Positions 31,803 through 36,617 of a stretch of 64,000 nucleotides of DNA are shown here, one piece after another; the stretch's first letter is position 1, and each line of letters starts with the position of its first letter. The notes under the pieces were generated by a model. It was not told where the DNA came from, did not search any database, and worked only from the letters and a program-made list of their open reading frames with translations. Position numbers and translations under genes: made by a program. Source of the stretch: Methanomicrobium antiquum. GTDB taxonomy: Archaea > Halobacteriota > Methanomicrobia > Methanomicrobiales > Methanomicrobiaceae. Where the stretch lies: positions 248,001 to 312,000 of the forward strand of contig NZ_CP091092.1 of assembly GCF_029633915.1 (NCBI RefSeq), given 5' to 3'.

Positions 31803-32087
31803 ATGGGATATATTCAGGTACTTCCGGAATTCGGACTTGTTGCAGATCCTATGGTTGGTCTTGTCACCACCGCAGGCGCATCATTAGCACCGGTTCTGGA
31901 ACAGGTAACTGAGCTTGAGTTAATTGCAGACGATGTTGTCGGCATGCTCTCAGGTGAAGGCAAGTTCTTATCTTCATTCCCGAACAGAGAGCAGTCTCTT
32001 GTTTATGCAGGAAGCGTCACAGCAATGTGGTATGGTATAGCAGTCGGACTAATTGTCGCGGGTATAGTCGCGTTTGCGTTACTCTGA
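31803..32087 (+). CDS. mtrB: Methyl-H4MPT:CoM methyltransferase subunit B
   Basis: 94 aa. [18 protein letters not shown] at the N-terminus and a single C-terminal membrane helix ([20 protein letters not shown]) are as expected. AAGGAGG upstream; 3 bp after mtrC. Confidence 0.95.
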
Positions 32088-32097
32088 GGTGTTAAAA

Positions 32098-32820
32098 ATG
32101 GCAGATAAAAAATCTCCGGCCTCAGGATGGCCAAAAATTCAGGGCGACTATCATACCGGCGATGCAAACAGTCCGGTTGTAGTTGTCACAGTGGGTTCAC
32201 ACCTTGACGAGCAGGGAATCTGTGATGCAGGAGCAGCAATGTGCGGTTCCTGTAAGACAGAAAACCTGGGTCTCGAAAAAATTGTTGCAAACGTAGTTGC
32301 AAACCCAAACATCAGATTCCTCATTACATGTGGAACTGAAGTTAAGGGTCACCTCTCCGGTCAGTGCTTAAAAGCCCTTCACGCAAATGGTGTTGAGGGT
32401 GGAAAGATTGTCGGAGCAACAGGTGCAATTCCGTTCATCGAAAACCTCTCAGCTGATGCAATCCAGCGTTTCCAGGAACAGATCGAAATAGTCGACATCA
32501 TGGAATCCGAGGATATGGGTGCTATCAAAGCAAAGATTTCTGAGCTTACAGCACGCGATCCCGGTGCATTTGAAGCTGATGCAATGGTTGTTGAGGTTAA
32601 AGAAGAAGACGGCGGTGCAGATGGCGCTGAAGGCGAAGAAGCACCTATGTCTGCTGAACTTGCTCTCATTCATGCAAGAATGAAGGCAATTCAGATGATG
32701 GTTACCGATATAGGCTATCGCAACCGCTTTGCAGCAGGTGTTTACTCAGGTAAAGTTGAAGGACTCATGATAGGTCTTATCATGTCTTTTGCCATACTTG
32801 GCTTCCTGTTGATGGGGTGA
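32098..32820 (+). CDS. mtrA: Methyl-H4MPT:CoM methyltransferase subunit A
   Basis: 240 aa, the corrinoid-binding subunit. The soluble domain (residues 1-172) holds [18 protein letters not shown] and the cobalt-ligand region [11 protein letters not shown] (His about 85). A linker and a single membrane helix follow ([17 protein letters not shown]). The start is ATG 32098 ([10 protein letters not shown]) with GAGGTG upstream. A second MtrA domain with about ten amino-acid differences is fused to MtrG two genes on. Confidence 0.97.
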
Positions 32821-32825
32821 TATAA

Positions 32826-33038
32826 ATGTCAGATGAGGAAAAATCAGGTCCGACAATTATAAGGATGGCAGCAATTGAAGACATGGTTGATGACATCCGC
32901 TTCAAAAGCCAGATCCTGGCAAGGACAAACAAATTAGAGTCCGGTATCATGAGTGCAGGTCTTACCGGATTTGGAATTGGTGTTGCAATTTCACTTGTTC
33001 TGGTTCTCCTGCCGGTATTTTTAATTGGAGGCATTTAA
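32826..33038 (+). CDS. mtrF: Methyl-H4MPT:CoM methyltransferase subunit F
   Basis: 70 aa. [20 protein letters not shown] and a C-terminal membrane helix match MtrF, a family whose helix-plus-anchor resembles the C-terminus of MtrA (compare [17 protein letters not shown]). GGGGTGAT precedes the ATG. It directly precedes the fused gene. Confidence 0.93.
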
Positions 33039-33039
33039 T

Positions 33040-33777
33040 ATGGCTGACAAAAAATCTCCGGCTTCAGGATGGCCAAAGATACAGGGTGACTACCACACCG
33101 GCGATGCAAACAGCCCTGTTGTTGTTGTAACAATGGGTTCACATCTTGATGAGCAGGGAATCTGTGACGCAGGAGCGGCAATGTGCGGTTCCTGTAAGAC
33201 AGAAAACCTTGGTCTTGAGAAGATTGTCGCAAACGTAGTTGCAAACCCAAACATTCGCTTCCTTATTACTTGCGGAACAGAAGTTAAGGGTCACCTCTCC
33301 GGTCAGTGTTTAAAAGCCCTTCATGCCGGTGGTGTTGAAGGCGGTAAGATTGTCGGAGCACAGGGTGCAATTCCATTCATTGAAAATCTAAATGCAGAAG
33401 CAATCAAGCGTTTCCAGGAACAGATCGAAGTAATCGATATCATGGAATCCGAGGATGTCGGTGCTATCAAAGCAAAGATTTCTGAGCTTACAGCACGCGA
33501 TCCAGGTGCATTTGAGGCTGAAGCAATGGTTGTTGAGGTCAAAGAGGAAGGTGGAGCAGACGGAGCAGTAGTTGCAACCGCAAACCCGCAGTTCCTTGAA
33601 ATTGAAGCACGCCTCAACGAAATTGAGACAAAACTTGAATTTGCAGATGCAGAGATTGCCCAGCGTGTAGGACGTAAAATTGGCCGTGATATCGGTATTC
33701 TTTATGGTCTTACAGCCGGTTTGATTGTATTTATGATGTTATTGGTATTACTCCCAAAACTTATGGCAATGATCTAG
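33040..33777 (+). CDS. MtrA corrinoid domain fused to MtrG
   Basis: 245 aa. Residues 1-178 repeat the MtrA corrinoid domain almost residue for residue, including [18 protein letters not shown] and [11 protein letters not shown] with the cobalt-ligand His. The MtrA membrane tail is absent. In its place residues about 182-245 are a complete MtrG ([40 protein letters not shown], then one membrane helix). It occupies the mtrG position in E-D-C-B-A-F-G-H. GGAGG before ATG 33040. Silent differences from mtrA are many and amino-acid differences few, so the domain is under selection and is not a fresh copy or an assembly error. The complex would then carry two corrinoid domains. Confidence 0.92.
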
Positions 33778-33792
33778 GAGGAGTGACGAAAA

Positions 33793-34830
33793 ATGTTCAA
33801 ATTTGAAAAAGAGCAGACGGTACTTGATTTCAACGGTACCAAGATTGGTGGGCAGCCCGGAGAGTATCCGAGGGTGCTTGGCGCTTCTATCTTCTATAAC
33901 AAGCATGAAACAGTTATTGATGATGAGAAGGGCATAATAGACAAGGATAGAGCAGAGGCGCTCTGGAACAGATGTCTGGAACTTTCTGATCAGTCAGGAA
34001 TTCAGCACTTCTGCCAGATAATCTCAGAAACACCAGAGGCATTTGAAAGCTACTTCCAGTGGTTTGACTCAGTCGACAACAAGACTGCATTCTTAATGGA
34101 TTCATCCAACCCTGGTGCACTTGCACATGCTTGTGAATATGTCACTGAAGTTGGTCTTGCAGACCGTGCTATCTACAACTCAATCAACGGTTCAATAGGA
34201 CCTGAGAATATTGAGGCTTTGAAGAACAGTGATGTAGATGCGGCTATTGTTCTTGCATTCAACCCTGGTGACCCAAGTGTTCGCGGTCGTGAACAGGTTT
34301 TAACATCAGGCGGAGTTGCAGGTCAGGAAAAATCAATGCTTGCAATCGCAGAGGAGTGTGGAATTACACGTCCTATTCTCGATACAGCGGCAACACCTCT
34401 CGGCCTTGGTTCAGGCGGTTCATTCCGTGAGATTCTTGCATGCAAGGCAATTCACGGTCTTCCAACCGGCGGTGCATACCACAACATGACTGTTTCATGG
34501 CCCTGGTTAAAGCGCTGGAGAGGTTCAAAGAAGAATCCTTCACTGCTTCTTCAGCAGTACGAAGGAAAGGATCTCCTTGCTGAGCAGATGGGTCATCACC
34601 ACTCCGGTGGACTTGAAGGCTTAAAGCAGGCAGCATGGACAGCACCTGATATTGGATGTAACATCATGGCGGCAACTCTTGGAGCTGACCTTATTATGTA
34701 CGGACCTATCGAGAACTGTGAGGCGGCAACAACCGCTATTGCATTTACAGATATTGTCCTTGCAGAGGCTGCAAAAGAGTTCGGTCTTGAACCGCAGGTG
34801 GACACACACCCGCTCTTCCACCTCGTATAA
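33793..34830 (+). CDS. mtrH: Methyl-H4MPT:CoM methyltransferase subunit H
   Basis: 345 aa. TIM-barrel-like subunit that moves the methyl group from methyl-H4MPT to the corrinoid of MtrA. FNGTKIGGQPGEYPRVLGAS, FLMDSSNPGALAHACEY, LAFNPGDPSVRGREQVL and LDTAATPLGLGSGGSFREI are family motifs. About 30 residues longer than the shortest homologues. GGAGGAG upstream. Last gene of the operon, followed by a T-rich terminator region. Confidence 0.96.
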   Translation: MFKFEKEQTVLDFNGTKIGGQPGEYPRVLGASIFYNKHETVIDDEKGIIDKDRAEALWNRCLELSDQSGIQHFCQIISETPEAFESYFQWFDSVDNKTAFLMDSSNPGALAHACEYVTEVGLADRAIYNSINGSIGPENIEALKNSDVDAAIVLAFNPGDPSVRGREQVLTSGGVAGQEKSMLAIAEECGITRPILDTAATPLGLGSGGSFREILACKAIHGLPTGGAYHNMTVSWPWLKRWRGSKKNPSLLLQQYEGKDLLAEQMGHHHSGGLEGLKQAAWTAPDIGCNIMAATLGADLIMYGPIENCEAATTAIAFTDIVLAEAAKEFGLEPQVDTHPLFHLV

Positions 34831-35109: not shown

Positions 35110-35318
35110 TAATTTATTATTTTTAATTATTCTCATTATTGCCAGATTTGTGAATTACAAATATAAAAATCCTGATAATATGAGATTATGATAATTCTGA
35201 AATCATCATAATCCTGAAATCATCTTTATAGTTACAACTATTTTTGAAGTCAACGCCGGACTTAATACTTTTCGTGACTATAAAGTTCTACATGAAAGAA
35301 TTCATAAATAAAAAAAGA

Positions 35319-36617
35319 ATGAAAAAATTTACATTCGCGGCAGTAACACTTCTTATATTTTGTGCAATATTTGCAGGATGCACAGGAGTTTCTGACCCTG
35401 ATAATAAAGACAGCGGGGACAAAACACCAGATAAAACACATGGTGCTGAATTAAACAGCACTGAATCTGAAAAAGCAGTGGCATCGGCAAACACAAACTT
35501 TGCGTTCTCTTTGTATGACGCAATCTCCAAAGAAACAGAAGTTGATTCAAATATATTCTACTCTCCGTATTCAATATCATCAGCATTTGCACTTGTCTAT
35601 GAGGGAGCAAAGGAAAATACTGCGGATGAGATAAGTTCTGTATTTTACTTCCCAAAGAGCATCGATATTTTAAGACAGGGTTTTAGAGATTTGAACACTG
35701 CAATAAACGAAGAAAACTCAGCATATGATTTAAGCGTTGCAAACGCACTCTGGGCTGAAAAGACACATCCTTTCCTTGATTCGTATATGAAAACAGCAGA
35801 GGAGTATTACTCGGCAGAGACAAAAAACTTAAACTTTATTGAAAAGCCAGAGGATTCACGTCTTGAAATCAACAAATGGACTGAGGTGAAGACAAACGAA
35901 AAGATAAAAGACCTAATCCCTCAGGGTATGATTGATTCAATGACCCGCCTTGTAATAACAAATGCAGTTTATTTCAAGGGAGACTGGGTAAAAGAGTTTG
36001 ACAAAAATAAAACATCAAAAGCTGACTTTACAACTCCGGCAGGAAAAGTTGTTGCTGTCGATATGATGCAGAGGACAGATGAAGATGCATTGTTTGATTA
36101 TGCTGAAACAGAAACTGTTCAGGCTTTAAAGATGCCTTATGAAAGCAGTGATTCAAACGGACTTTCAATGATAATTCTTCTTCCAAAAGATAATACTCTC
36201 TCAAAAGCAGAAGATTATCTGACCTTTGATAAATACAGTGATTTAACAGATTCAATGACAGAAGAAGAAGTCATGGTGTATCTGCCCAAATTTATGCTTG
36301 AAACAAAATATTCTCTTTCTGATACCTTAAAAAGTATGGGAATGACCGATTCATTTTCTGCTTCTGCTGACTTTTCAGGGATGGACGGGACAAAAAGTCT
36401 CAGCATAAGTTACGTTGTTCACAAAGCGTATGTTGATGTAGATGAAGAAGGAACAGAGGCCGCCGCCGCAACCGCTGTTGTAATGCAGCTCACATCTGTA
36501 ATTGAAAAAGACCCGGCATTTGTATTTATGGCAGATCATCCATTTATATTTACTATTCAGGATGACAAAACAGGAAACATTCTCTTTGTTGGAAGAATCT
36601 GCAATCCGGAATCATAA
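35319..36617 (+). CDS. Serpin, lipoprotein-anchored
   Basis: 432 aa from ATG 35319 (MKKFTFAAVT), chosen because it begins a lipoprotein signal (IFAGCTGV); an earlier frame start at 35244 would add a hydrophilic extension. The serpin fold is complete: NIFYSPYSISSAFALVYEGAK, LVITNAVYFKGDWVKEF and the C-terminal ADHPFIFTIQDDKTGNILFVGRI. The reactive-loop hinge is EEGTEAAAATAV, the small-residue pattern of inhibitory serpins; counting from it puts P1-P1' near Thr-Ser in MQLTS, so the target would not be trypsin-like. A protease inhibitor on the cell surface is inferred. Serpins are rare in archaea. Confidence 0.92.
   Translation: MKKFTFAAVTLLIFCAIFAGCTGVSDPDNKDSGDKTPDKTHGAELNSTESEKAVASANTNFAFSLYDAISKETEVDSNIFYSPYSISSAFALVYEGAKENTADEISSVFYFPKSIDILRQGFRDLNTAINEENSAYDLSVANALWAEKTHPFLDSYMKTAEEYYSAETKNLNFIEKPEDSRLEINKWTEVKTNEKIKDLIPQGMIDSMTRLVITNAVYFKGDWVKEFDKNKTSKADFTTPAGKVVAVDMMQRTDEDALFDYAETETVQALKMPYESSDSNGLSMIILLPKDNTLSKAEDYLTFDKYSDLTDSMTEEEVMVYLPKFMLETKYSLSDTLKSMGMTDSFSASADFSGMDGTKSLSISYVVHKAYVDVDEEGTEAAAATAVVMQLTSVIEKDPAFVFMADHPFIFTIQDDKTGNILFVGRICNPES

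Follow-up and report, generated by a model that had tools for sequence, protein, structure and literature searches.

The mtr operon of Methanomicrobium antiquum contains, in the place of mtrG, a gene whose product joins a second MtrA corrinoid domain to MtrG, and it raises the question of whether this gene is real and whether it gives Mtr, the energy-conserving, sodium-pumping methyl transfer step of methanogenesis, a second methyl carrier. The gene lies on the forward strand at 33040-33777 of the window, by which we mean the whole 64,000-nucleotide stretch that was analysed, and its translation is an MtrA-MtrG fusion of 245 residues. Behind the mcr genes the order is mtrEDCBA-F-(A·G)-H, with mtrB (31803-32087; PF05440, E 1e-31), the N-terminal part of which is expected to dock MtrH, mtrA-1 (32098-32820; PF04208, E 1e-86; TIGR01111, 338.9 bits), mtrF (32826-33038; PF09472, E 1e-20) and mtrH (33793-34830; 345 residues; PF02007, E 5e-98) all on the forward strand. 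The product of mtrA-1 has a corrinoid domain (residues 1-170) and its own anchor helix, that of mtrF is a free-standing stalk helix, and the intact MtrA that a preliminary description had placed two genes before the fusion is this mtrA-1, with mtrF between them. The fusion gene begins right after the mtrF stop codon, and GGAGG precedes its ATG. The genome is a single contig of 2,438,126 bases, in which PF04208 has exactly two matches and PF04210 one, namely the fusion itself, the sole mtrG; MtrH and MtrB are encoded once each. The possibility that the second carrier has an MtrH or MtrB of its own was therefore rejected.

The corrinoid domain of the fusion (residues 1-173; 33040-33558) matches PF04208 over residues 4-173 (E 1e-85) and scores 291.5 bits against TIGR01111 (mtrA), above the NCBI equivalog cut-off of 249.15. 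Alignment with PDB entries 9qtq_A, 8q3v_A, 5laa and 5l8x places the cobalt ligand His85 at codon 33292-33294, so that the fusion shows both MtrA characters tested, the family score and the lower ligand, in line with the preliminary description of its N-terminal part. The remainder (residues 179-245; 33574-33774) matches PF04210 over residues 179-236 (E 7e-23) as well as the MtrG chains 9qtq_S and 8q3v_G, scores 73.9 bits against TIGR01149 (mtrG; NCBI equivalog cut-off 50.65) and has the single stalk or transmembrane helix expected of MtrG. No PF09472 (MtrF) match was found in the fusion by Pfam, which separates it from the mtrA-F type. Between the two parts lies a Glu/Gly/Ala-rich linker (residues 169-179; 33544-33576), visible in linker alignments. 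In the AF2 model the corrinoid domain adopts the MtrA fold and superposes on 5L8X at 1.1 Å, residues 170-182 are disordered (pLDDT <50), and a single long helix spans residues 183-244.

The earlier statement that the protein ends with a complete MtrG and its helix holds for the helix and for the MtrG match, but MtrG is only nearly complete, the PF04210 match starting at profile position 6. This start falls at positions 5-11 within Methanomicrobiales, as against 1-2 in most genomes of the phylum outside the order; the fusion has therefore removed the first few residues of MtrG and put the linker in their place. Free MtrG reads PSVVVDPADF at the positions corresponding to the junction, and in the alignment a beta-prone AVVATANP segment of the fusion occupies the place of PSVVVDP. 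Since a beta sheet formed by the N-termini of MtrB, F and G docks MtrH (PMC12774963), the docking strand of MtrG may have been kept in the fusion.

This architecture has a published precedent that the preliminary description lacked: the fusion is already known, and is a fixed trait of the order rather than a peculiarity of one genome. Wang, Chen, Cao and Lou (2015) reported two mtrA copies in Methanomicrobiales and Methanococcales, the second being either mtrA-2b, an mtrA-G fusion present in all eight Methanomicrobiales then complete, or mtrA-2a, an mtrA-F fusion of Methanococcales and Methanocella arvoryzae, with gene conversion homogenising the mtrA-1 and mtrA-2 domains (PMC4632066). A further study counts mtrA among the genes with long-lasting concerted evolution, confirming the earlier report (PMC6053082). 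The M. antiquum gene is mtrA-2b, known since 2015 as a hallmark of Methanomicrobiales: it has the same domains, the same position between mtrF and mtrH, mtrA-1 alongside and concerted evolution, differs from the described gene in nothing of substance and is a further example of it. Our data agree with the 2015 description, on a larger sample. On the essentiality of mtrA in Methanococcus maripaludis, the source given by Wang et al. is Sarmiento et al. 2013 (PMC4632066); our literature search on this point found no direct paper.

The mtrA-2a gene resembles the fusion in placing a second corrinoid domain, likewise kept alike by conversion, on another stalk helix, and differs in being joined to MtrF rather than MtrG and in having an independent origin (PMC4632066). 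In the 2015 paper it was known, among Methanocella-like genomes, from M. arvoryzae only; we observed mtrA together with an mtrA-F fusion in three Methanocella-like genomes from two genera of one family (G239, G257 and G263), and found it absent from G248. In G263 there are also two mtrG genes in a row.

The distribution of the fusion was determined in 135 genomes of the order that were at least 90% complete. Exactly one MtrG match was found in 127 of these, and in 101 of the 127 the open frame around it is at least 200 residues long. The 26 shorter frames might be taken for normal mtrG, a reading that was rejected by checking their positions against contig ends: 24 lie at a contig end, one (G166) is due to a stretch of N that falls within both mtrA copies, and the last (G134) is a MAG copy with a frameshift, truncated by the contig end. 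After this check no normal free mtrG was found among the 127 single-match genomes. Outside the order but within the phylum, more than 100 MtrG matches among those listed all lie in frames of 55-143 residues, so that among the listed matches in the phylum fusion-length frames are confined to Methanomicrobiales. The MtrA+MtrG architecture that the preliminary description proposed to seek in relatives thus proved to be present throughout the order: all its adequately assembled genomes, which represent six families, have it, and the same fusion operon is found in a named MAG of the Methanospirillaceae.

Both corrinoid domains are maintained. Across 51 genomes, His85 and its surrounding motif are present in 51/51 MtrA-1 domains and 51/51 fusion domains, with no sign of the change from His to another residue that had been named as grounds for doubting the fusion. 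The two domains are on average 95.2% identical within a genome (range 84-100%) compared with 77.3% between genomes, and the median dN/dS between copies is 0.07, with dS near 1 in several genomes; these substitution patterns show strong purifying selection on both. In a DNA tree built from 66 domains of 33 genomes, the two copies of the same genome were sisters in 29 of the 33, and a single clade of fusion domains was rejected (p-AU 0.0001), indicating concerted evolution of the MtrA domains within genomes, as described for mtrA-2b. In two species pairs (G197/G207 and G024/G029), copies group by type and not by genome; the duplication therefore predates those species, and the likeness of the copies therefore reflects conversion and not repeated duplication. 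The sequences thus show that the corrinoid domain of MtrA was duplicated in tandem long ago, that the copy became fused to the 5' end of mtrG, and that conversion has since held the two domains close to identity.

The consequence of the fusion for the complex depends on the architecture of the Mtr stalk, which contains three copies each of MtrA, B, F and G with all four N-termini in the cytoplasm, as seen in Methanothermobacter (PMC10998594) and Methanosarcina mazei (PMC12774963). In both, a flexible linker carries the corrinoid domain of MtrA, which has been proposed to move back and forth between MtrH and the cavity of MtrCDE. As the stalk N-termini are cytoplasmic, the addition of such a domain to the N-terminus of MtrG is compatible with this arrangement. 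The complexes of Methanothermobacter marburgensis (8Q3V, PMC10998594) and M. mazei (9QTS, PMC12774963) share with that of M. antiquum eight subunit types and a stalk that allows such an addition, but their MtrG is free and each complex has three corrinoid domains. In M. antiquum, every MtrG-containing complex would have two corrinoid domains in each protomer, attached to the helices of MtrA and MtrG, respectively, and an (ABCDEFG)3 complex would have six shuttling domains instead of three, because there is no other MtrG and normally no internal start, unless the protein is cut; proteolytic release of MtrG from the fusion is possible. Six carriers would match the six MtrH of the M. mazei complex, which has three MtrA and whose membrane-distal MtrH its authors thought unlikely to be reached (PMC12774963). 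Because His85 and a flexible linker are preserved in each of the two domains, each should bind cobamide and ferry methyl groups between MtrH and the cavity of MtrCDE. The reading that probably suits these sequences best is the one suggested by the preliminary description, namely that Mtr has gained a second methyl carrier and with it a different stoichiometry; our literature search found no paper that draws the consequence of the fusion for the number of carriers per complex, and neither biochemical nor structural measurements on Mtr of Methanomicrobiales were found.

The likeliest benefit takes one of two forms. Loading of one carrier at MtrH might overlap with unloading of the other at MtrCDE, or the second carrier might serve the membrane-distal MtrH of each dimer, and either would raise turnover without more sodium pumps. 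Six carriers may nevertheless leave the rate unchanged, as the MtrCDE cavities stay at three per complex. Taking the evidence as a whole, we consider it likely that mtrA-2b is a fixed, conversion-maintained gene of Methanomicrobiales that provides two working carriers per protomer.

The alternative that deserves most weight, although we regard it as unlikely, is that the second corrinoid domain is folded yet serves in assembly, in regulation or as a spare rather than in routine methyl transfer, and that conversion with mtrA-1 keeps it intact; gene conversion could indeed preserve a domain that was only partly used. Such a role would be consistent with the drift of the copies to 84% identity in some genomes and with an order-specific insertion in MtrH, a sign that the complex has been altered in other ways too, but the invariant ligand and binding motif in all 51 fusions and the low dN/dS, despite dS near 1 in several genomes, are as expected of an active carrier. 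Very improbable is the production of free MtrG from the same gene by an internal start, which would leave the second domain on only part of the complexes: no evidence in its favour was found, and in 48 of 51 genomes, M. antiquum included, there is no ATG, GTG or TTG from 14 codons before to 5 codons after the NPQF junction. That the assembly misjoined a single mtrA and a normal mtrG across a repeat can be given almost no credence, because, although two mtrA copies do break short-read assemblies exactly at the mtr locus, the first 166 codons of the copies here show 58 differences in 498 nucleotides, mostly silent (41 codons synonymous, 10 replacement), a pattern that excludes read errors or a collapsed repeat, the same gene order recurs in single-contig genomes of other species, and the fusion was published for eight finished genomes. 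The DNA likeness of the two copies ends at the end of the domain, and there is none upstream of the start codon.

Near-identical mtrA copies were observed to break or corrupt short-read Methanomicrobiales assemblies at the mtr operon, both in the two defective loci noted above (G134 and G166) and at the contig ends of the 24 other genomes of the order. Surveys of MAGs would therefore under-report both mtrA-1 and the fusion.

The insertion in MtrH comprises about 30 residues after WPWLKRW and is found in the MtrH of the window and in nine other members of the order, that is, in all order members aligned. In the alignment it is absent from Methanosarcinia and Methanocella-type MtrH, and a shorter one stands at this site in MtrH of the ANME-1/Methanoliparia type. 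A tie between the insertion and the fusion was considered and set aside as unproven, as Methanocella-type genomes with the A+F arrangement are without the insertion.

A corrinoid domain on a stalk helix other than that of MtrA also occurs in the EDCB[AF]FGH operon of TACK archaea, ANME-1 and Methanoliparia, in which the small gene following the fusion was described as a duplicate mtrF (PMC9982363). Like the M. antiquum fusion, this operon has its corrinoid domain on a non-A helix; unlike M. antiquum, it has a single such domain, and the product of its next small gene has the profile score of an MtrA-type anchor. The stalk helices of MtrA and MtrF are weakly alike in profile matches, and two profiles, of canonical MtrA anchors and canonical MtrF, gave at most 27-29 bits across types and at least 87 bits within types on canonical control sequences. 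In all 18 loci of a first set, the helix of the fusion was of MtrF type (50-65 bits against 2-17 bits), whereas the next small gene was of MtrA-anchor type (36-52 bits against 8-24 bits), and the same was found in all 45 loci of a second set, from Methanophagales/ANME-1, Methanoliparum, Methanolliviera, a Nezhaarchaeota and a Thermoprotei MAG. Loci with an MtrF-type fused helix followed by a free MtrA-type anchor were recorded in ANME-1, Methanoliparia, Nezhaarchaeota and Thermoprotei MAGs (L162-L206) and in L147-L161. The plain reading of these profile scores is an anchor exchange, in which the sole corrinoid domain of the operon would sit on an MtrF helix and MtrA's own anchor would be a free stalk subunit, not a duplicate mtrF. 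This exchange in ANME-1, Methanoliparia and Nezhaarchaeota is possibly new; a literature search on MtrA and MtrF in Methanophagales found no paper. Because the sole complex-anchored carrier of ANME-1 is on a non-A helix, such anchoring must be workable, which supports, by analogy, the catalytic competence of a corrinoid domain placed there.

We put forward tentatively, at somewhat less than even confidence, that the Mtr corrinoid domain is a movable module used on three stalk helices (A; A and G in Methanomicrobiales; A and F in Methanococcales and some Methanocella; F alone in ANME-1, Methanoliparia and Nezhaarchaeota, where the former A anchor is a free subunit), and that the six carriers of the A and G arrangement match six MtrH and give the distal MtrH its own carrier. 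Both Mtr structures matched by sequence search represent lineages that lack the fusion, so that a model with a single carrier in each protomer does not hold for the Methanomicrobiales as a whole. In the fusion, nature has set up an experiment on the number of carriers that an Mtr complex requires and on the MtrH copy served by each, and the anchor exchange of ANME-1 is a second such experiment.

Second, divergent Mtr-like loci were also observed in some Methanosarcinaceae/ANME-2 and related genomes (L210-L212; G411, G490, G501 and G515, on contigs C109, C41, C120 and C129, respectively), with an MtrA about 33-36% identical to the ANME-1 query and an MtrG of about 57 residues; in the four genomes G411 to G515 just named, the divergent locus accompanies a normal mtr operon. 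Directly behind the mtr operon of the window, at 35244-36617, lies a gene for a putative serpin-like protein with a lipoprotein-like N-terminus, as judged from its own sequence.
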